Assembly: GCA_002205965.3 (NCBI GenBank)
Contig: NADL03000699.1
Coordinates: 620,001 to 684,000 of the forward strand
From: Kappaphycus alvarezii
Lineage: Eukaryota > Rhodophyta > Florideophyceae > Gigartinales > Solieriaceae
DNA: 64,000 nt
Reading direction: 5' to 3'
Of the stretch, positions 12,001 through 63,966 are shown one piece after another (position 1 is the stretch's first letter; the number at the start of each line of letters is the position of its first letter). The position numbers and the translations under genes are program-made. The notes beneath the pieces are model-generated. The model saw only the letters and a list, made by a program, of their open reading frames with translations, had not been told where the DNA came from and ran no database searches.

Positions 12001-12644
12001 CTAAACAGGAAGGTCGCATTTGTTGAACTGAAGTATATGTAACAGAGGGGTGCAATTTGAAATTTTTATGAGGTCATCTGTAGAGCTATCAGCAGTGCGC
12101 AAGAAGCACACGTTAAATATTTCTTCCTGAATATATGGGTTCCGAGTGCTCTTAATGCCGATCATGAGTCTAACTTCTTTAATTGTGAAGCATTTTGTAA
12201 TTACGTCGAGTAGTGACTTAGAATCGGTAAATATGTTGAGCATTTTTGTTTGACTGTATATTGATTGCACATCTCCCTTCAGTGTGTAGGCAAAGTCAAA
12301 TGCACCCGCGAAGGCATAGACTTTGCCACCGAGAAAAGAATGGGCTACCCGACTGCTTTCCCGACTTTATTACGCAAGTACATGACAATTGTATTTTTTT
12401 GGGGAGCAGGATAATGTATCCAAGTTGCGATGTTAGGTTGGAGTTGTTTGCGAAGGAATAATACGAGTATAGCTTGAGACGAATGCTAGATGTATCAAGT
12501 TTTTAGTATATAAGATGAAGGTGAGGAGTGCGGTGGAGGTATTTTATGACCTTGTTGAGTGATTCGATGTCATCGATGCAGGAACTTTCGAAGTATTTTG
12601 AAACGCAAACTGAATTGTACATGAAATATCCGGACTGCTGTGAA

Positions 12645-13327
12645 GAGACTATTATAGAGTTACCCGAAGAGATTTAAAGTACGAGAAGGTAGAGTTAAGT
12701 GGTAACTCCTTTATTGTTTTATGAATGACGAGACTATTATAGAGTTACACGAAGAGATTTAAAGTACGAGAAGGTAGAGTTAAGTGGTAACTCCTTTATT
12801 GTTTTATGAATGACGAGACTATTATTGAGTTACACGAAGAGATTTAAAGTACGAGAAGGTAGAGTTAAGTGGTAACTCCTTTATTGTTTTTATGAATGAC
12901 GAGACTATTATAGAGTTACACGAAGAGATTTAAAGTACGAGAAGGTAGAGTTAAGTGGTAACTCCTTTATTGTTTTATGAATGACGAGACTATTATAGAG
13001 TTACACGAAGAGATTTAAAGTACGAGAAGGTAGAGTTAAGTGGTAACTCCTTTATTGTTTTATGAATGACGAGACTATTATAGAGTTACACGAAGAGATT
13101 TAAAGTACGAGAAGGTAGAGTTAAGTGGTAACTCCTTTATTGTTTTATGAATGACGAGACTATTATTGAGTTACACGAAGAGATTTAAAGTACGAGAAGG
13201 TAGAGTTAAGTGGTAACTCCTTTATTGTTTTTATGAATGACGAGACTATTATAGAGTTACACGAAGAGATTTAAAGTACGAGAAGGTAGAGTTAAGTGGT
13301 AACTCCTTTATTGTTTTTATGAATGAC
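12645..13327. repeat. Tandem array, eight copies of an 85/86-bp unit
   Basis: Units start at 12645, 12730, 12815, 12901, 12986, 13071, 13156 and 13242, each beginning GAGACTATTAT and ending TTTTATGAATGAC. Copies are nearly identical. Units 3 and 7 share the diagnostic change ATTATTGAG and an extra T, four units apart, so the array probably grew by duplicating a four-unit (~341-bp) block. The array splits the RT domain of the copia relic. Unit 1 starts mid-sequence with one extra difference (TTACCCG instead of TTACACG). Contiguous identical repeats with no spacers exclude a CRISPR array. Confidence 0.97.
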
Positions 13328-20205: not shown

Positions 20206-21702
20206 TGCTGGTACGAAAACGGACCTTTCTGTAGGAGAGTGGTCCTGTCCACAAACTTCTGTCTTTTCCTTCCTCATGAGTTTTCAAAAACGACTCTTCC
20301 CACCAATTCTCTTTTACGAACAGAATACTGACACAAATTCCCCCCATGAATCCAAATTCACTGTGCAACTCCATTTCTGTTTTTCTTTGAGCGTTTGGTC
20401 CTCCTTTTTCAAAATAGGAATCTTTCGACTCGTGATTTGCTTGGTCCTCCAAATTCAGTTCCGATACTTTATCAAGCAGATTTTTAGGTATTGTCCTCAT
20501 CGCTTGAAAGTTCAAAGCTGTGGCATTGCCTCACATTTTTTATTTCGTCCAAGGCCGTGAAACCTTTCGGTTACGTTGCCCTATTTAAAGTCCGAAATCT
20601 ACGTCGTTGAGGCAAGCCCCCGCCATCAACTATCCCATTGGCTCACCCCTTTTTTTGCCCTCAAAATGACCAACTTCCGCCCGTCCCTCACCATCGCCAA
20701 GTCATCCCGAGGCCGCCGTCCTCTCAACGCTCTGGCTCTGCTGGCAAATGATCCAACCGAATACGATGACTACTGTTGAAGAATGGACCGGGAACGCGTT
20801 CGGGAGTGGGTCCGCCAGCACTGCTTCGAGCAGGCAGAAGAGGCAGAGGAGGAGGTAGGGGAAGAAAGGGAAGAGGAGGATGAAGAGGGGGACTAGGTGG
20901 ACCCGTGGGAGCCACTGGTGTGTAACTGTGGGGGAGCTCCCATGGAGAACGATGGGGAGACTGAGGGAATAATCGTTATCTCTGACTCTTCTGACGAAGA
21001 TGAATAGAAGGGTGAGGAGGAGGAAGAGGAGGAGGAGGGGAGAGAGACATGGAAAATGCTGGAATAGTGGGGAGGGGGCCGGAAAGTATGGAACAGGTGG
21101 TCCCGACTCTGGAACCGGATGGGGGCATCTTCAGTGGTCTATATATTTCCCAGGAGTAAATGGAGCATCGTAGGTCATTCGCGGATATTTTCTGGGACTG
21201 CTCGGGTGGAATGGATATTTTGGAGGAATTGCTTGGCTCTGATCACGACTGCTAAGCTTGTAAGGAAGAAATCTATATATTTATGCTGATAGTATCTGCT
21301 GCTAGTCTTTCCCGTTCAAAAGATTCCATTTGATGCATTTTTTGGTACTTAGTATGTTTGTTTCAGACTTTAGGGTTAGCCAAAAAGTCTATATATTCTG
21401 AGTTAACTGCTTCCTCTAGAAGAGGTCAAGCAAGCTGGCTGACAATTCCGAGCCAAGTCCCGAGTAGTAGGAAGTTGATAGTCAACTTCAGACCAAATAA
21501 CCATTCTTCTTGCGCTGGTCAGAGACCATCAGTGGTATACCTTGCCCCTTCTATACTTAATTGTAGCACTCTCAGCTGTTATCCTTATCCAATCCTTTTT
21601 GTTCGGTCAACTACACCACGGAGCACTTCTGTCGCTTGGAACACCTCCTTCTTGGGGTATTTGGTTCTGATTATCTCTTGTTCCGGCGATTTACCCCTGT
21701 CA
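20206..21702 (+). mobile_element. 5' LTR of gypsy element A, gene-carrying form (1.5 kb)
   Basis: Starts TGCTGGTACGAAAACGG and ends TTTACCCCTGTCA. It is followed at once by TTTGGTACTC, a plausible primer-binding site starting TGGTA, and then by gag at 21792, which identifies it as a genuine 5' LTR. It aligns with the solo LTR 1192-2698 over its full length, including the gene. It contains two promoter-like boxes: CTATTTAAAG near 20580 for the internal gene, and CTATATATTC near 21388 for the element transcript, followed by the hairpin-rich R-like region. Confidence 0.8.
20666..21255 (+). pseudogene. LTR-borne acidic protein with SUMO-interacting motif, copy 2
   Basis: This copy keeps the best N-terminus: MTNFRPSLTIAKSSRGRRPL, then LANDPTEYDDYC and a TGA stop, then RMDRERVREWVRQHCFEQAE. 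After a second stop (TAG near 20895) it reads VDPWEPLVCNCGGAPMENDG and IIVISDSSDEDE, a canonical SIM: four aliphatic positions followed by Ser-Asp-Ser-Ser-Asp-Glu. A stop and frameshifts follow, and the tail DISQE..DIFxDC.GGMDILEEL is still readable at 21140-21255. At least three stops make it non-functional. The consensus from three copies would be about 195-200 residues. Confidence 0.7.
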
Positions 21703-21791
21703 TTTGGTACTCTTGTAGAGGGGGTTGCACCCGAGGTATTCTAGTTCTGAAGTTCTAGGGAACACTTAAGTTTTATTTGTTTTCTGTAATC

Positions 21792-24700
21792 ATGGATCTC
21801 AAAGCTGCTCGTATATCCTTCACGGCGGGCAAGAGTGAAGACGTGGAGGAGTTTCTCTATGCATGTTTTAATGTTTTGGTGCGTAAGAAGAGCGATGAAG
21901 AGAAGGCTGCAAGTATCTTTGCCTATCTTTATGGTGACGCAAAGCACAAATATAGGGCCAAGTTTATCGGCGGGTGGTCTCTTAACGGGAATGGGCGTAA
22001 CTTTGGTGAGGTATGTGAGTGGCTTGTGAAAGGATAAGCTAAGGAGGTAGAACCAGATGCGATGATTCGTACCGTCATAGAAGCCCGGCCCAATTTTGAT
22101 GATTTGTTAAGCTCATTGGTATACTTGTGTGATCTGTATAATAAGGCTGGTTTCAACGCCCAAGCCAAGTACGGAATGCTGCGTAAGGCGGCGATGGGAA
22201 TAAGCGGCTCTCCGATATTTTCCTCATCAAGGGCCCTCACACTTTTAATGAACTGAAGGGTGCCATAGAAGAATTTGTCAAAAACTCGGAGACATTTCAG
22301 TCACTGAGTGAGGTACCGACGGAAACCCCTACTTCGATGTCTATCGTACATCCTAGAAAGAATTACCAAAGACCGGCTACTAATGCAGTGGCATTAGAAT
22401 CTGTCAGGAGCGATGTCAAAACTTGGAAGAACGGCTGGAAACCCGATTCGACAATCTAATTGACATGATAACCTCGCAGTTGGATATACTTACTCTTACC
22501 ATCAAGAAGAGCCAGTCTGGGGCCCCTAAGGCCGCATAAATCTGCTCCTTCTGCCACAAGCCTGGACAATTTGCAAAGAGGTGTCCTGATAATCCACATA
22601 GAAACACTTGCTGTGAAAAACGCGGCCGATATGGTCACCATGCAAGTAACTGCGGGTCTAAAGACAACAGAAGAGAAAAATTATCGGACGTCAGATGCGA
22701 ATCAGGGCCGGAGGTGAAAAATTTACAAAACCGGAAGGAGAAAGGTAACGTATCCATCGCTTAAGAAATCAGTCAAGCCAGTGTGACAAAAAGGGATGGA
22801 GAGAGGAACATTTTATCGTAAAAACGTAGGTTAGAGCATAGAATGCTGGAACATATCCCCGCACCTGTACCTCCTCGGACGAAGAGGTCTGATCAAGTTG
22901 TTCCAGTAATGGAAATCACTCCGGCCGAGAAAACGAAAAAGAATAAGAAATTAAAGAGTATCCCGGGGGACGTACTAGAGTATGCGAATAAGTACAATTT
23001 GGTAGTTGAGCTTGCATCGGCCCAAACTGGAATAACGTTTGGTCAACTTTTGAGGGTCGACGCATAGGATGCGAGAAAAGAACTCAAAACAATTATCAGG
23101 TCTAATAAGTCCGCTAAGGGTAAGAAATTTTTTCTCCAATCGGCCTCGACAGCACCAAGACGTCTTAAACTGATAACAGTAAAAGTATTGAGAATGAAAA
23201 GCCAAGCTCTTTTAGATTCGGGCGCTGTTCCAGACCTTATTTCAGACACTTTGGTGACAGATCTAGGTCTCGAATCTATTCTAAATACTCGAAGAATAAC
23301 TGTTGCGGATGAAACCGTATCAAAAGGCATGGGCACAGTTGACAAGGTTTCCGTGTTCTTTGGGGACTCTAAAGTTGATGTCGACTTTCTTGTCATGCTT
23401 GATCTACCTTTCGATTCAATCATTGGTTTCTTTACCGTAGAAATCCTAGATACATACATTGAATTGGGCAACCAAAGCGTTGCAGTTCATATATACGGCA
23501 GAACCGTGAAGATGCCCCTTTACTTCGACAAAAGCATACACCCAGAAGATTTAAGAGAAATGAACAATGAATAATCCACTTCTAGTTATGACAGCTAAAA
23601 TTCCGATCCTACTAACACTTACGGAAATAGAAAAGGGTACACTCGAGGAAAAATGAACATGACATGGGATGATTATGATTCCGGGTTTGGAACAGATGAC
23701 GAATGGGACTCTATGGAAAATTTGAGACCCAAATTTGTTTCCTTTTGCGATAATATCGAGTCAAAGGACGGCATTCAGAGGATGAAAGAGGATTTCCTTT
23801 GCAAAGAGAATAAAAATATGCCAAATTCCATACCGGAAGAGATCGTTCAAAATAGGAACGGTAAGGATCAAGAAGAAGAAGCGCGCAAGATTGCATAAAT
23901 TCAAGAAAAAGTACAGCACCTTCCCGCTCCCTCATCAAAGAAAATATCCAACATATTAACATCTTCCGAAGTAATTGCATGGAGCGTTTCAGACCTAAGA
24001 CAAGCAAGTGTACCGGTCACTCACTCATTCGAACTTACCGATGCTCAACCAATTTAACATAGGCCTAGACGTCAACCGCCGAAATATGACCAATTCATCT
24101 CAGAAAATGTTACGAATATGCTGGAAAATGATATATTATTTGGCCCGTTTCATCCCCATGGTCATTTGCAGTTGTGGTAGTGCCAAAGAAGGATGGAAAA
24201 CTTCGCTTTTGCGTCGACTACCGACAGTTGAACCAAAGAATGTTACCCGACCGATTTCAGATTCCAAACATCGAGAAAATCCTCGAGGACCTGAAGGACA
24301 GGAGATACTTCACCTCAATTGACCTTTACACTGGCTATTGGGAGATTCCGATGGATGAAAAATGTAAGGAAAAAACAAATTTTACCAGCAAAGCTGGTAA
24401 GTTCATGTTCGAAGTGATGCTTTTGGTTTCATGAATGCACCAGCTACATTACAGAGAATTATGAACGATTTTTTGAAATGACTTGCATTTGCAAGAGTTT
24501 ATATCGATGATTTGGTAATATTCTCAAAAAATTGGATCAGCACATATCGCACGTAAACGCAATGGTGGAGAAGATATCGGCATACAGCCTAAAAACCAAG
24601 TTGAGCAAATTGTTCTTTGCGAAAACTTCTATCCAAATACTCGGTCATATCGTCGATCAAGAGGGAATTAAAGTGGATCCAGAGAAAACGAAAAAAATCA

Positions 24701-25290
24701 AGTTGACACCAAGGCCCGCTTCAAAGACGGAGGTTCGAAGCTTCTTAAGACTTGCCTTATATTACTCTGAATGATGCGGAAAAGAGATACTCAGTCTCGG
24801 AGAAAGAAGCTCTAGCTGTCGTCTTCGCACTGAAGAAGTTTCGCGTCTACCTTTTATCACTTGAAAATTTTGTTTTGATAACTTCAAAAGAATGTGCATC
24901 ACCGCTTGGATCGAAGATTCGAAATTTTTGCAGAATATCGGTTTGTAATTGTGTATAGACCCGGACGCCATAATCAGCCTGCTGATTATCTATCCCGTTC
25001 AAGGGATCCAATTAATCCAAATGAAAAGGCTTCCGAGGACATCATCGGAGTTGCCGAGGTTCAAGTGCCAAACGATAACGAGTACGAAGCTAGTCTTCAC
25101 GGATTAATGAAATTCCTTGATGGAATAGAAATGAGAGTGGTCGATCTTGAACACAGAAATTGGGTACACAGGAATCAAAATGCTTTTACATCGTGGAATG
25201 GGAAACTATTCCGACACACTAAAGCTAGTCATCGACTAGTGTCCCCTTTGAAAGAAAGAATGAAGACCTTGAGGACTTTTCAGCGAGACT
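21792..25290 (+). pseudogene. Gag-pol of gypsy element A, decayed and truncated
   Basis: Gag starts MDLKAARISFTAGKSEDVEE and carries two CCHC knuckles at 22540-22650 (CSFCHKPGQFAKRC with His replaced by Gln; CEKRGRYGHHASNC with the second Cys replaced by Arg). The protease near 23210 reads ALLDSGAVPDLISD. RT reads LRFCVDYRQLNQRML (24200), then SIDLYTGYWEIPMD and YIDDLVIF (24500). The fingers, palm and start of RNase H follow. About 250 bp between LRLALYY and TLNDAEKRY are deleted compared with element C, removing the RNase H start. The frame ends in the integrase zinc-region lead-in (KERMKTLRTF) at 25285, joined abruptly to an LTR-gene fragment. Confidence 0.8.
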
Positions 25291-25326
25291 GAGGGAGTAA
25301 ACGTTATCTCTGACTCTTCTGACGAG
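25285..25326 (+). pseudogene. 41-bp fragment of the LTR-borne SIM gene
   Basis: Directly after the truncated pol of element A, the sequence reads GAGACTGAGGGAGTAAACGT and then codes VISDSSDE, matching the SIM region of the gene copies at 20955-21000. This is the expected scar of a deletion running from integrase into a gene-carrying 3' LTR. What follows, from about 25327, does not match the LTR. Confidence 0.75.
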
Positions 25327-42147: not shown

Positions 42148-44290
42148 TTGATTTATGAATACCCTCCGCACGCTTCTGTGCAACGTTGTACAACCCATAA
42201 AGATTTACCACCAGCCCAGGCATTGGAAGACACGAGAGAATACCTCGCTCCACCACAGGTGGCCAACGGAGTGCACTGCGGACTGGATTCTATCGTACAC
42301 GAAGCCCGAAGACTGGTCGCCACCAAAAGTGAAGATGAGGACTACGCGCTGGTTTCAGTGGATGCACATAATGCGTTCAACCGCTTCTCGAGACAGAAAA
42401 TGATCGACCTCCTACCGACCAAAGTGCCGTCGTTATGCTGCTTTCTGAACATGGTGTATGCCCGTCAAATGCCGTCCCTAATCTTGCCTGCGGCATCGAC
42501 ATAAGACATCCCTAGCCAAGAAGGGATGCAACAAGTGGACCCAGCAAGTATGTTGATGTTCTCCCTTGTCATACACCAACTGGCAAGAGAAATTTCCGAT
42601 CAGACCCAACTCCATTTACACAGATGGTATGCGGATGACTGTACCCTGGTAGGCAATCACACTGAGCTCGACAAGGCTGTCGAGATCCTGAGGTCTAAGG
42701 GACCTGACCATGGCCTGTATCTAAGCCCGGCGAAGACACGCCTATTCTGGCCGCGCCACCCCGCCACTGAGACACCCCTACTGCACCGCTTTCCATATGA
42801 GAACTTCTCAAATCACGGCATTGACCTCCTCGGCGCCCCGATCGGTTAGCCTCAATTCATGGAGAACTTTCTCAATGAAAAAATTGCAGGATGCAATAAT
42901 ATGTTATCGCTGATCGATGGGATTGGGGATGCTCGCATCCGGTTCCACCTCCACCGTGTTTGTGCCTCGGCACTCAAGCTACATCATGTGATGAAGCTAA
43001 CACCGCCGAGTGCAACAAGCGTCCTGGCAATGAGATTTGACCAAGAACAGATGGAATATTACTCGCGGTCAAACAAAGTGCCGATGACAAGTGCGGTCCG
43101 ACAGCAAATGGCTCTTCCGTTACGCCTCGGAGGCCACGGATTCACACCCGTGGCAACGCTGAATCTAGCGTCGTATGCGGCCAGCGTCATCGACTCCGAA
43201 CAAGTGACATGCCCCGATGATCCTAGCGTAGCCCACCACCGTGCACAAAGCTATGCACATGCTGATACCCACCTTCTCGAGTTTGTCCGACGACTCCACC
43301 CAAGCTTCTCTGACGGATATGGTGGTCTCCCAGAAATGCTGACAGCCGCCAATCTTGCAAACAAGCCCTATAATACACTCAGTATTTTGTATCGAGCCTG
43401 GTGCAAGTCGGCAGCAAAGGTATTCTGGAAAGAAGACCAATGGGAGAGGTTTCCAAGCACTACGCTGCATACGGAAGCTGATATTCGGCAAAGGATCCGC
43501 CGCCAGGCATACTTAGAGACGCCTGCTGCAGCCTTTCTCACCGCACATCCGTCTGCGGTCAGCCGGACCTACAATAAGATGTGGTCAGTGATGTTACGCC
43601 GCCACCTGGGAGTTCACGTGTTTGACGACACTGTGCCGCTGCAATGCGCGGAGTGCAACAGGCCCATGGACAACCGAGGTGACCATGCAGCGGATTTTTG
43701 CAAAAAAGGCCTGGGATGGACTAACCGGCACAATGCCGTAGTGAAGGTATTTGCCCGACAAGTGTTCAAAGCAGCAGGAGTCGGCGTCCAATATGAGGTG
43801 AATTACTTACTTCCCAGACTGAATGCACGGCCTGCCAACATTCTAGTGTACCCGAGGTCGGAAGAGATCAACACCTTGCCGCCCCTCCCGGTGGCGTACG
43901 ACGTCACAGTAACATCGCCATTCCAAGAGGGTTCATGTCCATTGGAGCGAGTGGGGCGCGCGCCGTTGCCAATGCAGCGGAAAGACGGAAAAATAGGGAG
44001 CTTGCCAGCAAAGTAGCAGCCATCCCCGGTGAAGCCATCCCAGGACGATCAAAACTGGGATGGAAGTTTGTGCCGCTAGCCTTTGACTCACTTGGATCGC
44101 CGTCTGCGACGACGTCGAAGGTAATCGACGAATACGCGGTCGCTGTCGCAACCCGCAGCGGATGCTCGACGGGAGGAGTGAAGACTCGGCTTTAACAGCA
44201 GCTTAGTTATGCGATTTGGTCCACGTGTGCCGCGTCTGTAATATGTCGCGCCCCACAACATGCAGAGTTTAGCTACCCTATTCAAACCTA
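42148..44290 (+). pseudogene. RT retroelement type 1, YADD polymerase and zinc C-terminus
   Basis: RT palm: VDAHNAFNRFSRQKMIDLLP, then after a frame break the segment with SLVIHQLAREISD and LHLHRWYADDCTLVGNHTEL; catalytic YADD intact near 42630. Next LYLSPAKTRLFWPR and GIDLLGAPIG. A stop at 42848, then a 385-residue frame 42859-44016 covering thumb (ALPLRLGGHGFTPVATLNLA) and a C-terminal zinc domain (CAECNRPMDNRGDHAADFC then RHNAVVKVFARQVFKAAGVG). It ends DVTVTSPFQEG and, in the next frame to about 44290, EYAVAVATRSGCSTGGVKTR. It lacks fingers at the start. Resembles non-LTR-like RT families of marine organisms by general pattern; exact clade unknown. Confidence 0.75.
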
Positions 44291-47468: not shown

Positions 47469-48217
47469 GTAGGTACAACTAGCAAAGTCCGAATACCCCA
47501 CTGTAACAAATCTAAAAGAAGAGGACCCATTTTGGGTGCAGTATCTGAATTAGCAAATATTTTTACATTTTTACAGTATCCGAATTTGAGAGAAAATTTT
47601 AAATTTGGATGAGTGCGGCAAGTTCATGGGTTGATTGTTTTAAATTTTATGACATGCTGGCATTAGTAGATGTCAGTACACGCCAAGGTTCTGGGTAATA
47701 CCAAGAGTGACTCTGGAAAATCTATATAATGGCCGCATCAATTCACGCCCCTGGCCGATGGGTAGCGGGTATGTGTATGGCACCTAGATACTTTCCTTGA
47801 AGAAATTTCTTCTACTAATCTCTCTCGTTCACAATATTCCCTATAATGCATTTTATGGTACTTACTATGTTTGTTTGAGACTTTATGGTTAGCCGGAAAT
47901 TCTATATAAGCTGAGTAAACAGTTTACTTTTGTGGGGGTCAAGCAAGTTGCCAGACAACTTCAAGTCAAGCCCCAAGTAGTTAGGAAGTTGAGTGTCAGC
48001 TTCAGATCCAAGAACAGTTATTCTCACGCTGATAACGGAGCGAAAATGGTAGACCCTGCCCCTTACATGCTCGCTTGTAGCCCTCTGAACTATCTTCATT
48101 ACCCACTTCTTTCTGTTCGCTCAACTATGCCACGGTAGCACTTTTGTCGCTTGCAACACATCCCTCCTGGGATATTTGGTTCTGATTATCTCTTCTCCCG
48201 ACGCTTTATCTATATCT
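47469..48217 (+). mobile_element. 5' LTR of gypsy element B, gene-less form
   Basis: About 750 bp. It aligns with the LTR at 63248-63966 throughout, including AATTTGGATGAGTGCGGCAA, CTATATAATGGCCGC (first TATA), the GCCGATGGGTAGC block, TTCTATATAAGCTGAG (second TATA) and the AACTTC hairpins. It lacks the SIM gene. It is followed by TTTGGTACTC and then gag at 48304. The left end is degraded, so the start is approximate. Confidence 0.75.
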
Positions 48218-52992: not shown

Positions 52993-53233
52993 AGTAGTAG
53001 GAAGTTGATAGTCAACTTCAGACCCAAGAACCATTCTTCTTACTCTCGTCAGAGAACACCAGTGGTATACCCTGCCCCTTCTATACATAATTGTAGTCCT
53101 CTCAGATATTATCCTTGTCCACCTCTTTTCGTTCGCTCAACTACACCACCGGAGCACTTTTGTCGCTTGCAACACCTCCTTCTTGGGGTATATGGTTCTG
53201 AGTATCTCTTGTTCCGACGATTTCCCCCTATAA
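52993..53233 (+). mobile_element. Truncated 5' LTR of gypsy element C
   Basis: Contains only the last ~240 bp of the LTR, starting inside the second hairpin block (TAGTAGGAAGTTGATAGTCA) and ending before TTTGGTACTC. It is joined directly to the broken pol of element B, so element C lost its 5' LTR promoter half. Confidence 0.8.
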
Positions 53234-53321
53234 TTTGGTACTCTTTTGGAGGGGTTGCACCCGAGGTATTCTAGTTGTGAAGTATTAGGGAACACTTGAG
53301 TGTTATTTGTTTTCTGTAATG

Positions 53322-54250
53322 ATGGATCTCAACGCTGCTCGTATAACGTTCACAGGGGGTAAGAGTGAAGACGTGGAGGAGTTTCTCTATACATATTTTA
53401 ATGTTTTGGTGCGTAACAAGAGCGATGAAGAAAAGGCTGCAAGTATCTTTGCCTATTTTTATGGTGACCCAAAGCACAAATGATAGGCCAAGTTTATCGC
53501 CGGGTGGTCTCTTAACGGGAATGGGCGTAATTTCGGTGATGTATGTGAGAGGCTTGTGAAAGAATATGCTAAGGAGGTAGAACCAGATGCGATGATTCGT
53601 ACCGCCATCGAAGCCCGGCTCAATTTTGATGATTTGTTAAGCTCAATGGTATATTTGTGTGATCTCTATGATAAGGCTGGGTTCAACGCCCAAGCCAAGC
53701 ACGGAATGCTGCGTAAGGCGGCGATGGGGATAAGCGGCTCTCCGATTTCCTCCTCATGAAAGGCCCTCACACTTTTAATGTACTGAAGGGTTCCATAATA
53801 GAATTTGTCAAAAACTCGGAGACATTTCAGTCACTGAGTGAGGTACCGACGAAGACCCGTACACCGATGTCTATCGTACATCCTAGAAAGAATTACCAAA
53901 GGCCGGATTCTAATACTGCGGCATTAGAATCTGTCAGGAGCGATGTAAAAACTTGGAAGAACGGCTGGAAACCCGATTCGATAATCGAATTGACATGATA
54001 ACCTCGCAGTTGGAGAGCCTTACTCTTACCATCAATAAGAACGAGTCTGGGCCTCTAATTCCGCATAAGTCTGCTTCTACTGCCACAAGCCTGGACACTT
54101 TGCAAATAGGTGTCCTGATAATCCACATAGAAACACTTGCTGTGAAAAAAGCGGCCGATATGGTCACCATGAAAGTAACTGCGGGTCTAAAGACAACAGA
54201 AGAGAAAATTTATCGGACGTCAGATGCGAATCAGGGCCGGAGGTGAAAAT
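53322..54250 (+). pseudogene. Gag of gypsy element C
   Basis: MDLNAARITFTGGKSEDVEE then FNVLVRNKSDEEKAASIFAY, broken by a stop at about 53480. It resumes with KEYAKEVEPDAMIRTAIEAR (53556 on) and LYDKAGFNAQAKHGMLRKAA. After a stop and frameshift the zinc-knuckle region near 54070-54180 reads CHKPGHFA.RCPDNPHRNTC and CEK.GRYGHHES-NC-like. Homologous to gag in A and B. No catalytic role; it would form the capsid and bind RNA. Confidence 0.75.
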
Positions 54251-54436
54251 TTTACAAAACCGGAGAGAGAAATGTAACGTATCCATCGCTTAAGAAATCA
54301 GTCAAGTCAATGTGACAAAAAGGGATGGAGAAAGGAACATTTTATCGAAAAAAGTAGGGTACAGTATGGAATGCTGTAACATATCCCAGTACCTGTACCT
54401 CCTCAGACGAAGAGGTCTGATCAAGTTTTTCCAGGA

Positions 54437-57400
54437 ATGGGAATCACTCCGGCCAAGAAAACGAAAACGAATAAGAAATTCAAGAGTATCCCCAAGGACG
54501 TACTAGATTATGCGAAGAAGTACAATTTGGTAGCTGAGCTTGAATCGGCCCCAGCTGGAATAAGGTTTGGTCAACTTTTGAGGGGGACGCAGAGGATGCG
54601 AGAAAAGAACTCAAAACAATTATCAGGTCTAATAAGTCCGCTAAGGGTAAGAAATTTTTTCTCCAACCGGCCTCGACAGCACCAAGACGTCTTAAGCTGA
54701 TAACAGTCAAAGTATTGGGAATGAAAACCCAAGCTCTTTCCGATTCGGGCGCTTTTCGAAACCTCATTTCAGAAACTTTGGTGACAGATCTAGGTCTCGA
54801 AATTATTTTAACTAATCGAGGAGTAACTGTTGCGGATGGAACCGTATCAAAATGAATGGGCACTGTTGAAAAGGTTTCCGTGTTCTTTGGGGACTCTAAA
54901 GTTGATGTCGACTTTCTTGTCATGCCTGATCTCCCTTTCGATGCAACCATTGGCCTACCATGGAACGACTAGGGACATGCATTGACTTGGGCAACCAAAG
55001 CGTTTCATTTCATATATACGGCAGAACAGTGAAGATGCCCCTGTACTTCGACAGAAGCATACACCCAGAAGATTTAAGAGAAATGGACAGTGAATAATCC
55101 TTTTCTAGTTATGACAGCGACGATTCCGATCCCACTAGCAATTTCGGAAATAGAAAAGGGTAAGCTCGAAAAATACTGAACATGACATGGGATGATTATG
55201 ATTCCGGGTTTGAAATAGATGTAGACTGGGATTCTACGGCAAATTTGGGACCCTAATATGTTTCCTTTTGCGATAACATCGAATCAAAGGACGGTATTTA
55301 GAGGATGAAAGAAGATTACCTTTGCAAAGTGAATAAGAATATGTTGAATTCCATATTTGAAGATACGGGCACACCGGAAGAAGTCGTTCAAAATAGGAAC
55401 GGTAAGGATCAAGAAGAATAAGGGCACAAGAGCGCATAAATTCAAGAGAAAGTACGGCAACTTTCCGCTCCCTCATCAAAGAAAATATCCAACATATTAA
55501 CATCTTCCGAAGTAAGTGCATGGAGCGTTTCAGACCTAAGACAAGCAAGTGTACCGATCACTCACTTATTCGAACTTGCCGATGCTCAACCAATTTACCA
55601 TAAGCCTAGACGTCAACCGCCGAAATATGACCAATTCATCTCAGAAAATGTTACCAATATGCTGGAAATGATATTATTTGGCCTGTTTCATCCCCATGGT
55701 CATTTACAGTTGTGGTAGCGCCAAAGAAGGATGAAAATCTTCGCTTTTGTGTCGACTACCGACAGTTGAACCAAAGAATGATACCCGATCGATTTAAGAT
55801 TCCAAACATGGAGAAAATCCTCGAAGACCTGAAGGACGGGAGATACTTCGCCTCAATTGACCTCTACACTGGCTACTGACAGATTACGATGGATGAAAAT
55901 GTAAGGAAAAAACAACTTATACCAGCAAGGCCGGCACGTTCAGATTCGAAGTCATGCCTTTTGGTTTCATGAATGCACCAACCACATTGCAAATAATTAT
56001 GAACGATTTGTTGAAAGGACCTCCATTTGCAAGAGTTTACATCGATGATGTGGTAATATTCTCAAAAAACTTGGATCAGCACATATCGCATGTCAAGACA
56101 GTGGTGGATAGTATATCGGCATACAGCATGGAAATTAAGTCGAGCAAATGCTTCTTTGCGAAAACTTCTGTCCAATTACTCGGTCATATCGTCGATCAAG
56201 AGGGAATTAAAGTGGATCCAGAGAAAACGAGAAAAATCAAGTTTGCACCGAGGCCCGCTTCAAAGACGGAGGTTCGAAGCTTCTTAGGACTTGCCTCATG
56301 TTACCGACGATTTATCAAAGATTTAGCCAAGACAGCAGCCCCGTTAAATGCCAGTACTACGAAGAACGGGAAGTTTTACTGGAGCAAGGATATGCAAACT
56401 GCATTTGAGGAGCTCGAAGATAAGCTATGTTTCCCCAAGTGCTAATGTATCCAGATTTCAAGAGACCATTTGTTGTGGAAACAGATGCCTCAGAACGGCC
56501 TCTGGGCGCCGTTTTGTCCCAGAAAGATGAGAACGGAAGACTACACCCTGTTCAATTCGCAATTCGTACTCTGAATGATGCGGAAAAGAGATACCTAGTC
56601 TGCGGGAAAGAAGCACTAGCTGTCGTCTCCGCACTGAAAAAGTTTCGCGTCTACCTTTTATCACTCGAAAAATTTGTTTTGATAACTGATCACCAGGAAC
56701 TTAAGACGGCTTTCCAAAAGAAAGATGTACATCACCGCTTGGCTCGATGGCTCGAAATTTTCGCAGGATATCGATTTGAAATTTTGTATAGACCCGGACG
56801 CAATAATCAGCATGCTGATTACCTATCCCGCTTGAGGGAACCAATGAGTCCAAACGAAAAAGCTTCCGAGGGCATCGTCGCAGCTGCTGGGGTGCAAGTG
56901 CCGAACGATACCGAATACTAAGCTAGTATTCACGGACTAATTAAATTTATTGATGGACTAGAAATGAGAAAGGTTTATCTTGAACACAGAAATTGGGTAC
57001 ACAGGAATCAAAAACCTTTTACATTGTGGAATTGGAAACTATTTCGACACACTAAAGCCGGTCCTCGACTGGTGGCCCCTTGAAAGAAAGAATCAAGATC
57101 TTGAGGACTTTTCATGATGAGTTAGGGCATTGGGATCTCGAAACAACCAAAAACTTAATTACGGAAAGATTTTGGTGGCCCAGCATCCATAAATACGTGT
57201 ATAATTTCGTGAAAAGCTGCGGCAACTGTCAAAAATTCACTCCGATACGAAAATATAAGACAACTCTAAGCTTTCCAGTTTCTGGTCTTTTTGAAACCTT
57301 CTCAATCGACTTTGCTGGCCCATTCAAGGAAATCTCTTCCGGAAACAAATATTTCCTTATAGGGGTGGAATATCTTACTGGATGGCCAATAGCAGTTGCA

Positions 57401-58164
57401 GTTGAGGAGGCCAATGCTGAGGTTGTCCTGAGATTCATCGAAAAAGAAATAATTGAACCGTTTGGTCTTTCAAAAAGGATCATCTCGGATAACTTCCCTT
57501 GTTTTACTGCAACTTCACTGCTACGTTTTGGGAAGAGAAAGGTATTCAGCTGAAGAAAGTTCTCGCATACGCTCTTATGTCAAACGAGAAAGCGGAGAGG
57601 ATGGTTGGAACCATGAAACGAGCAATATCGAAAACTATGTCGGAGATTGAAATCCAGTGGGAAGATGCCTTACAAAAAGTGTTATACGGCTATCGTCGAA
57701 GAAGAGGAAGAACTGGACGCTCACCATTTGAGCTAATGTACGAAAGGGCTCCTAGAATGCCAAAGAGAGACAAGGAAACAAAAAATATCGACGAAGAGAG
57801 TAGAGAAGTCGAACTACTGGCCACAGAAGGCTGGGGACCACACCGCGCGTTAATACAGACAAGAAATAAGGGTGCAGAGCCTCCAGTCCAAACCTTTTCA
57901 GTCGGCTCTACAATACTTGTAGTATATGGAAAAGCAATGCAGCAGGCTGTGAAGTGGCCGGCCTTCCAAACAAAGTACTCGAACCCTTGCATCGTCACGG
58001 AGGAAAGACACCCGCGTTATAAGCTCTGTTCTATCTCAGGTAAGAGACAAGGAGAGCCATCCATGCACGACTTCTGGTCTCTTACCATCATAGGCCTGAA
58101 GAATTACTTCTCACTCAGGACTATGCGCAACCACGAGGCATACTCATCGTTAACTATAGAATGA
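54437..58164 (+). pseudogene. Pol of gypsy element C, best preserved of the family
   Basis: Protease: ALSDSGAFRNLISETLVTDL with D-S-G at 54742-54750. RT: FCVDYRQLNQRMIPDRFKIP, FASIDLYTGY, MPFGFMNAPTTLQ, and an intact YIDD at 56038-56049. RNase H: KRPFVVETDASERPLGAVLS and TDHQELKTAFQ (56460-56720). Integrase zinc region: HDELGHWDLETTKNLITERF then CGNCQKF. Core: FSIDFAGPF (Asp), RIISDNFPCF (Asp), NEKAERMVGTMKRAI (Glu). The last frame 57499-58164 is open for 221 residues. Stops or frameshifts near 54855, 54968, 55880, 56440, 56920, 57080 and 57530 inactivate it. There is no chromodomain, unlike the 30-36 kb element. Confidence 0.9.
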
Positions 58165-58192
58165 TTCCTATGGGAGGAAAAAGAGCCTGGTA

Positions 58193-58630
58193 ATGGATTA
58201 TCTCGATTACGCAGGACTACTACGAACTCCAAGTAATCATCCATTTCTACATTCATATATCCTATGTTTTCGTTCGTTGAACGGCCAATTGCTACCCGGA
58301 GAAGATTTCCGACTATTAATAAGAGTTCTATTTTCATTCCAAAACGGAAGGTTCGCGGAAGCAGGTCCAGAATTTGTAGAGGTAATATATCATTACTCTA
58401 TTGGAAAGTATGGGAAAGTAGCTATCGAAGACTTTTCGCAAACATATCTGAACATTATCCGCCCCATTTACGTATTTCTAAAGACCAACCAAGATGTGCA
58501 ACTGAGAGGTCACAGCGTACCCCCTGATATGGATATCGACTGGTCCATTATCCCCTATGGGAACCTTACGTTTCTCCGCCAAAGAACACGAACTCAGCTG
58601 AAGACCAAGATCCTCCCGAGACCGTCATGA
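58193..58630 (+). CDS. Accessory ORF X1 of gypsy element C
   Basis: 145 residues, starting 28 bases after the pol stop, in the same orientation and before the 3' LTR. It begins MDYLDYAGLLRTPSNHPFLH and has a central segment FVEVIYHYSIGKYGKVAIED followed by FSQTYLNIIRPIYVFL, ending in a basic tail. The central segment lines up with X3 (AYYIYYLTFGRFGEVKREE, then DHYKTIRRIYETL), suggesting one duplicated domain. No transmembrane helix or signal peptide, so it is not an env-like protein. Its stop overlaps the start of X2 (ATGA). Intact frame. Function unknown; I know no standard gypsy protein like it. Confidence 0.6.
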   Translation: MDYLDYAGLLRTPSNHPFLHSYILCFRSLNGQLLPGEDFRLLIRVLFSFQNGRFAEAGPEFVEVIYHYSIGKYGKVAIEDFSQTYLNIIRPIYVFLKTNQDVQLRGHSVPPDMDIDWSIIPYGNLTFLRQRTRTQLKTKILPRPS

Positions 58631-58896
58631 TGATACGACCAGGACCATCCAGTGATCGGGGCGGGTCATCAAAGAGGGCAAGGCGTCGAGAACAACGAGG
58701 AAGATCACCGAGGAGATCACCTCAAACACCGCCTAGTCTCCCAGGAGGAAACTACGTATCCGTCATTATTGGACGGCTACCAATTAGACGTTGGCTTCGC
58801 GAAATGACAGAAGACCCTCGAGAAAGAGAAGTATTTTTTTTGCCATTAGTATTTGCATGTTCTTCCAAAGCATTCACGGGCGCACCTTACCCGTAA
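58627..58896 (+). CDS. Accessory ORF X2, arginine/serine-rich
   Basis: 89 residues overlapping the X1 stop by four bases (ATGA), an arrangement that allows termination-reinitiation. The N-terminal half is strongly basic (SSKRARRREQRGRSPRRSPQ), resembling a nuclear-localisation or RNA-binding stretch. The C-terminal part is hydrophobic (EVFFLPLVFACSS) and may be frameshifted relative to X3. It could be a linker of a longer X1-X2-X3 protein now broken by mutations. Function unknown. Confidence 0.45.
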   Translation: MMIRPGPSSDRGGSSKRARRREQRGRSPRRSPQTPPSLPGGNYVSVIIGRLPIRRWLREMTEDPREREVFFLPLVFACSSKAFTGAPYP

Positions 58897-58954
58897 CGAC
58901 TCAGTCCTTATGTTGCGTGTTTTTTTCTCCTTCAGATAACCGTTTCTGGACCCT

Positions 58955-59215
58955 TTGCCAGAGAAGTTCGCATACTACATATACTATTTAACATTTGGAA
59001 GGTTTGGAGAAGTGAAACGAGAGGAGCCCATTACAGACCACTATAAAACCATACGCAGGATCTACGAAACTCTTGACCAAGGAGTTAAGCCGGTCATGGA
59101 ACGGTACACACTCTCTCACCATACCGGAAATGAGTTACTGCCCTATCCATTCAGTCAACCATATAGTCTCCCCGATGAATGGATAGAACTACCAGAAGAA
59201 CAGCAGGAGCAGTGA
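58955..59215 (+). CDS. Accessory ORF X3 of gypsy element C
   Basis: 86 residues, likely N-terminally extended before a frame break (upstream in-frame residues include FLDPLPEKF). It contains KFAYYIYYLTFGRFGEVKRE, DHYKTIRRIYETLDQGVKPV and a PYPFSQPYSLPDEWIELPEE tail. The first part matches X1's IYHYSIGKYGKV region in order and spacing. It ends about 35 bp before the polypurine tract. A retroelement domain of unknown function is the most cautious reading. Confidence 0.5.
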   Translation: MPEKFAYYIYYLTFGRFGEVKREEPITDHYKTIRRIYETLDQGVKPVMERYTLSHHTGNELLPYPFSQPYSLPDEWIELPEEQQEQ

Positions 59216-59235
59216 AGACGAGCCGCGACGATCGT

Positions 59236-59251
59236 CTTGAGCGGGAGGGCA
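59236..59251 (+). other. Polypurine tract of element C
   Basis: TTGAGCGGGAGGGCA immediately before the LTR start TGATATGCGC. The same tract precedes the LTR at 63966 on the minus strand, which fixes the LTR boundary. Confidence 0.8.
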
Positions 59252-60610
59252 TGATATGCGCAAAAATTTCAAACGAAAAAAAATCTATAAGAGGACCAAA
59301 TTTGGATACAGTATCGGAATTCGCAAGATATTTTTACAGTTTCTGAATTTGCAAGATATTTTTAATTTGGATGAGTATGGCAAATTTATGGGTTTGTTTT
59401 TTATTTTAAGACACGTTGTCATTAAAGATGTCATTACATGTCCGAGGTCGTCATACTTTTCGAAGACGTCGCAGTATTTAAAATTCGAAATCGACATCGT
59501 TGAGGCAATCCCCCCGCCATCAACTACCCCATCGGCTCAACCCTTTTTTGGCCCTTAACATGAACAACTCCGCCCTTCCCTCACAATCACCAAGTCATCT
59601 CCAGGCCATCGTCCACTCAACGCTCTGGCCCTGATGGCAAATGGTCCAACCGACTACGATGATTACTGTAGAAGGTTGGACCGGGAACGCGTTCGGGAGT
59701 GGGTCCACCGTAACTGCTTCGAGCAGGCAGAAGAGGCAGAGGAGGAGGAGGAAGAGGAAGAGGAGGATGAAGAGGAGGATGAAGAGGAGGACTGGGTGGA
59801 CTGGGTGGACCCGTGGGAGGCACTAGTTTATAACGGTGGAGGGCTCCCATGGAGAACGAAGAGGCGACTGAGGGAGTAATTGTGATATCTGACTCTTCTG
59901 ACGAAGATAAAGAGAGGAGTGAAGAGGAGGATAAGGAGCATGAGGGGGAGGGAGACATGTTAAGTGCTGGAATAGTGGGGAAGGGGCCGGAAAATATGGA
60001 CCAGGTGGTCCCGACTCTAGAACCGGATGGAGGCATCTTCAGTGGTCTAGATATTTCGCAGGAGGCAATGGGGAATTGTAAACCGTTCGTGGATATTTGT
60101 GGGGACTGCCTGGGTGGAATGGATATTTTGGGAGAACTGTGTGGCTCTGATATAGAGGACTAAGATATTAAGGAAGGAATCTAGATATTTATCCTGATAG
60201 TATCTGCTGGTAGTCTTTCTCGTTCACACGATTCCATCTGATGCATTTTATGGCTCTTAGTATGTTTCTTTGAGACTGTAGGGTTAGCCAAAAGTCTATA
60301 CAAGCTGAGCGAACTGCTTTCTCATGGAGAGGTCAAGCAAGTTGGTAGACAAGTTCAAGTAAAGTCCCGAGTAGTAGGAAGTTTAGAGTCAACTTCAGAC
60401 CCAAGAAACGTTTTTCCTACGCTGGTCGCAGAGTATCAGTGGTAGATCCTGCCCCTTCCATACTTGCTTGTAGCCCTCTCAACTGTCTTCCTTATCCACT
60501 CCTTTTTGTTGGCTCAACCATACCACGGTAGCACTTTTGTCGCTTGCAACACCTCCTTCTTGGGGTAGTTGGTTCTGAGTATCTCTTCTCCCGACGATTT
60601 ACCCCTATCA
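59252..60610 (+). mobile_element. 3' LTR of gypsy element C, chimeric gene-carrying form
   Basis: Starts TGATATGCGC beside the polypurine tract and ends CCCCTATCA, 1359 bp. The first ~190 bp match the gene-less LTRs (63966 inward on the minus strand). At about 59440 the sequence switches to the gene cassette shared with 1192-2698 and 20206-21702. At about 60180 all forms become alike again. It has a TATTTAAA box near 59476 for the internal gene and a degraded CTATACAAG box near 60296. It abuts an RT-element fragment at 60611. Confidence 0.85.
59560..60163 (+). pseudogene. LTR-borne acidic protein with SUMO-interacting motif, copy 3
   Basis: Start ATG at 59560, with a one-base loss soon after. 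The middle frame 59634-59879 reads GPTDYDDYCRRLDRERVREW, HRNCFEQAEEAE, a poly-Glu/Asp tract and WVDPWEALVYNGGG. A one-base shift leads to frame 59849-60163: MENEEATEGVIVISDSSDED (canonical SIM plus acidic residues), a second charged tract, then QVVPTLEPDGGIFSGLDISQ and DICGDCLGGMDILGELCGSD with a natural stop TAA at 60161-60163. Only two frameshifts are needed to explain it, so this is the least damaged copy. Conserved Cys pair in DICGDC. Confidence 0.75.
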
Positions 60611-63247: not shown

Positions 63248-63966
63248 TGATAGGGGTAAATCGTCGGGAGAAGAGATACTTAGAACCAACTACCCCAAGA
63301 CGGAGGTGTTGCGAGCGACAAAAGTGCTACCGTGGTATAGTTGAACAAATAAAAAGCAGTGTATATGGGAGAGAGTTGAGAGGGCTACAAGCAAGTATAA
63401 AAGGGGCAGCGTCTACCACTGATTCTCTGCGACTTGCTTAGGAAAAAGTTTTCTTGGGTTTGAAGTTGACTCTCAACTTCCTACTACTCGGAGCTTGACC
63501 TGAAGTTGTCTGCCAACTTGCTTGACCTCTCAAGGAGGAAGCACTTTACTCAGCTTATATAGACTTTCGGCTAATCCTAAAGTCTCAATCAAACATACTA
63601 AATACCATAAAACGCATTCACGGGAATCGTGTGAACCAGAGAGACCATTAGAAGATATTTCCTCAAGGTAAATATCTAGGTGCCATACCCATGCCAGCCA
63701 CCCATCGGCCAGGGGTGGGAATTGATGTGGCCATTATATAGACCTTTCAGAGTCACTCGTAGTATCACCCACAACCTAGAACTGTACTGACATCCACTAT
63801 GACAGCGTGTCCTAAAATAAAAAATCAACCGATGAATTTGCCACACTCACCCAAATTAAAAATATCTTGCAAATTCAAAAACTGTAAAAATATCTTCCCA
63901 GTTCCAATACTGTATACAATTATGGTCCTCATCTAAATTTTTTCGTGTGCGAATTTGCGCACATCA
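63248..63966 (-). mobile_element. LTR of gypsy element D, gene-less form
   Basis: 719 bp with clean ends: on the minus strand TGATGTGCGC to CCCCTATCA. It carries two TATA boxes (TCTATATAATGGCC and TCTATATAAGCTG) and both AACTTC hairpins, all intact. The uninterrupted sister sequence at 45701 (GTTTGAATTC) shows the insertion point after GTTTG. Orientation and the polypurine tract outside (63967-63980) make it a 3' LTR of an element that continues past the window end. Confidence 0.85.

Follow-up and report, generated by a model that had tools for sequence, protein, structure and literature searches.

In a red alga, a family of Ty3/Gypsy retrotransposons almost certainly carries a selected protein-coding gene inside its long terminal repeat (LTR), judging from the way its copies have diverged. 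Purifying selection has acted on the frame while the family replicated, in agreement with an original prediction that this LTR encodes a protein.

The LTR and Its Element

The window, meaning the whole stretch of 64,000 nucleotides that was analyzed (C695:620001-684000), belongs to a 336-Mb genome in 884 contigs and holds three copies of the LTR on its forward strand: W1 (1192-2698), W2 (20206-21702), and W3 (59252-60610). Partial LTRs lie at 47519-48216 on the forward strand, from the superfamily of these three copies, and at 63248-63966 on the reverse strand. The U3 of the W1/W2 subfamily has no match to that of W3 upstream of LTR position ~190-206. No Rfam match was found anywhere in the window. 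An 85-bp tandem repeat of eight copies, 98% alike, occupies 12641-13327, and a 385-aa ORF at 42859-44016, which has no Pfam match and resembles by eye a frame beside the genome place L002, probably belongs to a non-LTR element.

Searched at the DNA level, the genome gave 6490 first-look candidates (such numbers, here and in the protein searches, are not copy counts), 40 of which were scored, with 41 matches listed. Among these matches, from the 40 candidates scored out of 6490, identity runs from 85 to 100%, and most are near full length. Thirty-nine genome places from this search and the three window copies form a set of 42 LTRs, and the structure predicted for the window, an LTR with a gene inside it, recurs in these 39 further copies.

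W3 is a true Ty3/Gypsy LTR, of a family with paired LTRs, TG..CA ends, and short target duplications. It stands in the 3' position, and the limits first proposed for it, with TG..CA ends and a purine-rich, PPT-like stretch just upstream (59239-59251, forward strand), are borne out by the ends of solo copies with 5-bp target duplications. Such solo LTRs account for 16 of the 42 by script, a count that includes L013, a repeat of L012, and L027, whose duplication depends on a shifted match. L012 and L013 are identical, share their target duplication, and lie on different contigs, which suggests that contigs are duplicated or represent haplotypes. The PPT-like stretch, the mark of a 3' LTR, precedes five of the 42, W3 included, in identical or almost identical form; a PBS-like stretch, the mark of a 5' LTR, follows two; and the script assigned no class to the other 19. 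W2 is the 5' LTR that it was predicted to be: directly after it, at 21703-21720 on the forward strand, comes the PBS-like stretch beginning TTTGGTACTC, which is conserved after 5' LTRs, and gag pieces lie beyond. A paired element on contig C641 (left LTR L070, right LTR L028), known from its LTRs and flanks, the interior not having been fetched, has ATATC on both sides, a PBS, and a PPT, and its two LTRs differ at 12 of 1366 aligned sites.

The internal region upstream of W3 (53232-59251, forward strand) is broken into pieces in several frames, and it keeps the Ty3/Gypsy domain order of RT (55897-56442), RNase H (56424-56918), and integrase (57056-57550). RT, RNase H, and the zinc domain of the integrase score over the Pfam cutoff; the integrase core and a zinc-knuckle-like segment at 54069-54290 score below it. 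For the protease, one profile model is over its cutoff in the copy at 23068-23571, the only copy tested. Ahead of the internal region lies an LTR 3'-end fragment (52993-53231, forward strand) with 89% identity to W2 and 84% to W3. That it is nearer the W2 subfamily than the 3' LTR suggests recombination or rearrangement between subfamilies. Extra ORF pieces without a Pfam match at E 0.1 run from the integrase to the 3' LTR (58160-59212, forward strand); two of them are weakly alike (34% over 44 aa), and a splice-acceptor-like stretch stands directly ahead of the second of these.

The Gene Inside the LTR

Across the family, the gene is a single sense frame of 175-222 codons at a fixed place. 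In one reference copy, it spans LTR positions 317-925 of 1373, so that the ORF is wholly within the LTR, and among the 41 aligned LTRs, 35 begin the gene with ATG and 39 end it with TAA. In W3, the predicted elements are present, namely the putative promoter box TATTTAAA at 59475-59482, an ATG at 59560, and a segment reading VIVISDSSDED at 59876-59908, which resembles a SUMO-interacting motif (SIM). The frame itself, from ATG to TAA at 59560-60163 on the forward strand, is broken by shifts near the start and in mid-gene. The same gene had been proposed for the other two window copies; it is at the same place in both, as relics with frameshifts and stops, at ~1662-2245 in W1 (with TATTTAAA at 1576-1583) and at ~20666-21249 in W2 (with TATTTAAA at 20582-20589). 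The three copies in the window are all pseudogenes. At 25285-25325, where the pol of another copy breaks off, there is also a ~40-base segment from the SIM region of the LTR gene.

Intact copies do exist elsewhere in the genome. Translated as they stand, 8 of the 42 LTRs examined keep the complete frame (L009, L015, L016, L019, L025, L039, L043, and L045), which begins at the second ATG in L039 and L043; L015, L016, L025, and L045 are solo LTRs. Searching the genome with the protein gave 9580 first-look candidates, of which 150 were scored, and 154 matches at 70-100% identity. The 30 best-scoring of these 154 were fetched with their flanks, and all 30 lie inside an LTR, which rules out a nested insertion limited to the three window LTRs.

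Selection on the Reading Frame

A set of 28 ORFs (378 pairs), selected because their frames are open, has a pooled dN/dS of 0.494, which drops with distance from 0.82 at dS<0.08 to 0.42 at dS>0.3, well below 1 at depth. The acidic columns give 0.273; the non-acidic columns give a pooled 0.643, falling from 0.89 to 0.50 with distance. Control values are 0.92 and 0.83 for the shifted sense frames and 1.02, 0.60, and 0.95 for the antisense frames.

A second set, 41 LTRs taken by DNA similarity and not by open frame, allows changes to be sorted by how widely they are shared. The site-normalized ratio of amino-acid to silent changes (N/S) is 1.22 for private changes, 0.62 for those in two copies, and 0.44 for those in three or more. 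The contrast between single and shared changes has a Fisher p of 1.3e-5, to be taken as a guide given that the test assumes independent changes; with three other reference copies, p is 9.5e-5, 0.0012, and 5e-6. Leaving out Glu/Asp codons, the ratios are 1.29, 0.70, and 0.56 (p=0.001). The controls were 11 frames: two in sense, three antisense, three from upstream, and three from downstream. A smaller drop is seen in one antisense frame (1.07, 0.88, and 0.56; p=0.024), and in the others the change is not significant (p 0.09 to 1). The lowered antisense frame is tentatively attributed to shared silent sites. The deficit of amino-acid relative to silent changes among inherited variants is frame specific, with one antisense frame partly lowered.

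No stops occur among changes common to at least six copies. Within the gene, 6 of 8 gaps found in several copies have a length divisible by three, versus 0 of 2 downstream; for private gaps, the numbers are 7 of 20 in the gene and 3 of 17 downstream. As read from these comparisons, the pattern is that of a gene kept working in replicating copies and free to decay after insertion.

Constraint differs along the protein. By shared changes, N/S is 0.44 for the N-terminal extension, 0.77 for a predicted helix, 0.33 and 0.48 for two acidic tracts, 0.44 for the middle, 0.22 for the SIM, and 0.67 for the C terminus. The SIM, predicted from the window copies, is present and conserved, with the lowest of the seven ratios (N/S 4/6, ten changes in total). 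By the same measure, the helix and the C terminus are only weakly constrained.

The Predicted Product and SUMO

The product is about 200 aa long, with a slightly basic N terminus, one predicted helix, two acidic tracts, and a C terminus in which hydrophobic and acidic residues alternate. That of copy L049 has 202 aa, 22.6 kDa, and a pI of 4.05, with a net charge of +4 over residues 1-57 and a strongly negative one beyond. An AlphaFold2 model from 27 sequences has a mean pLDDT of 50 and a single notable helix at residues 33-53. The product resembles an acidic adaptor that is largely disordered.

By identity, DPWEPLVYNG is conserved better than any other stretch, the SIM included, and the SIM core is slightly above average (0.913 vs 0.872). 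The SIM-like segment (59876-59908 on the forward strand in W3) has the hydrophobic V/I core beside an acidic and serine stretch that marks such motifs, and it is conserved in the 28 ORFs. Of 30 ORFs, 25 match a strict SIM pattern, which arises in 0.06% of shuffles of one of these ORFs; a relaxed pattern arises in 3.5% of shuffles. The host has a SUMO gene, one exon of which has SUMO chains as its best matches, in a frame that ends with GG plus one residue. That the product binds SUMO is plausible, and we judge it to be an even call.

Proposed Role

The explanation preferred here, held with even confidence, is that the gene is an accessory gene of the LTR whose product, a disordered adaptor, would act in trans in the nucleus by docking on SUMO; the gene's own transcription, the nuclear action, and the docking are what we infer. 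The Gypsy-family LTR would carry the gene behind a TATA box of its own, and any LTR, a solo LTR too, would be a one-gene unit. The product would dock on SUMO or on SUMO-modified chromatin and transcription factors, and this docking in trans might keep the element's promoter usable or aid its spread. That the product counteracts silencing is speculative, and we hold it to be doubtful. It is improbable, in our estimate, that solo LTRs, having kept a promoter and a complete gene after recombination, seed the genome with a trans-acting, SUMO-docking factor that shields full-length relatives from SUMO-dependent silencing, even where gag-pol is gone. How the gene decays or survives in solo LTRs offers a natural way to test whether copies help one another in trans, and provided that the SIM is functional, the element would encode a factor directed at the SUMO system of a red alga.

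The main rival to the SUMO adaptor is an acidic transcriptional activator of the element's own LTR, a role like that of Tax or Tas, with the SIM-like stretch being mainly an acidic cluster of the casein-kinase-2 type. The acidic tracts, the alternating residues of the C terminus, the predicted disorder, and the closeness of the gene to candidate promoters are all consistent with an activator. However, Pfam finds no DNA-binding domain, and the hydrophobic core VIVI is itself conserved, beyond the needs of a kinase site, and we regard the activator as possible but somewhat unlikely.

Candidate Promoters and the Position of the Gene

TATTTAAA (59475-59482, forward strand, in W3) begins 85 bases ahead of the ATG. 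Of 41 aligned LTRs, 33 have it unchanged, and in 39 no ATG intervenes before the gene starts. Its conservation beats 95% of windows within 100 bases (5% match it). It would drive the gene's own transcription. A second TATA-like box, decayed in W3 (60296-60305, forward strand), is a candidate promoter for genomic RNA by its motif; as CTATATAAGC, it lies downstream of the gene, at position 1059, in 29 of 41 LTRs. It is not exceptionally conserved, with a quarter of all ten-base windows kept equally well. If CTATATAAGC drives the genomic RNA, the gene is in U3, and if CTATATAAGC is not a promoter, the gene is in R; we place it, probably, in the U3 part.

Placing the gene in R would make TATTTAAA the sole promoter of the element and the ORF the first frame of the genomic RNA, with a part in packaging or in controlling gag translation. 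TATTTAAA is indeed common to W1, W2, and W3 despite their diverged upstream U3 and is locally well conserved, and the alternative promoter is a motif match. Yet CTATATAAGC past the gene puts an ordinary second promoter on offer, and a long translated leader would precede gag; we consider this arrangement unlikely.

Searches for Relatives

Searches of 5.8 billion proteins gave no relative of the gene product at E ≤ 0.01, either with a single sequence (6716 candidates scored) or with a 27-sequence profile (the 7978 candidates sharing most words scored). Among viral contigs, 263 pattern matches were found, none confirmed as relatives. Pfam gave subthreshold matches only, with no family at cutoff, the superantigen family included. 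Among PDB sequences, a single-sequence search found no match, and the best match in a profile search, at E=0.24, is taken as chance.

The protein collection does include red algae, as seen from the 120 best-listed matches of host actin: Within these, identity is 83% for Gracilaria and Gracilariopsis, 77-79% for Pyropia and Porphyra, and up to 96% for metagenomic or read-set entries. Two contigs (genome places L092 and L093) have oxidase genes, one of the cbb3 type, whose nearest chains are bacterial, suggesting that the assembly includes bacterial contigs. In a COX1 fragment, TGA is read as tryptophan, as it is in red algal mitochondria, and its nearest chain is 7jro, a plant enzyme, ahead of animal and yeast chains. 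Judged by actin and COX1, the host is probably a florideophyte among the red algae.

A host gene caught by the LTR as a passenger, and kept for the host and not for the element, would fit with the lack of any retroelement relative in these searches. No host relative turned up in Pfam, the PDB sequences, or the protein collection with its red algae, though, and the best 30 of the 154 genome matches are all in LTRs, which leaves this origin very unlikely. A functionless open frame arising by chance in a low-complexity, purine-rich LTR might be suspected from the 34 of 42 copies that are broken and from the low-complexity acidic tracts, but it is in effect ruled out by frame-specific selection, seen in the drop of dN/dS with distance and in the contrast between private and shared changes in the true frame, even without Glu/Asp codons (p=0.001).

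Comparison with Known Systems

Mouse mammary tumor virus has the sag gene, for a superantigen, in its LTR. As with sag, the gene described here is a protein gene within the LTR, in sense, and apart from gag-pol. The proteins are unrelated by our searches, the element is a Gypsy element of an algal host and not a betaretrovirus, and the gene here has a TATA-like box ahead of it inside the LTR. HIV nef and foamy virus tas/bet are likewise accessory frames that extend into an LTR, but these begin outside and only overlap it, whereas the gene here is wholly inside. To our knowledge, it is rare for an LTR to contain an entire gene.

Extra genes beside gag-pol are also found in Gypsy elements of plants, where additional ORFs of unknown function are described in LTR retrotransposons (PMC11963269 and the review PMC7264820). 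The extra ORFs of Retand, as described there, are in the internal region and often antisense, in contrast to a sense gene in the LTR, and the plant additional ORFs are defined as lying between the LTRs, while the gene here is inside one. LTR retrotransposons of bdelloid rotifers likewise have family-specific accessory genes, the extra ORF3 genes, and these are described as enzymatic or env-like (PMC5408684), unlike the LTR gene here. A literature search found no Gypsy LTR gene of this kind, most subscription journals being outside its scope. In position, the closest precedent is MMTV sag; in general concept, it is the extra ORFs of plants or rotifers. What is new here is the combination of a Gypsy element, a red alga, a gene wholly within the LTR, and a protein that is so far an orphan.
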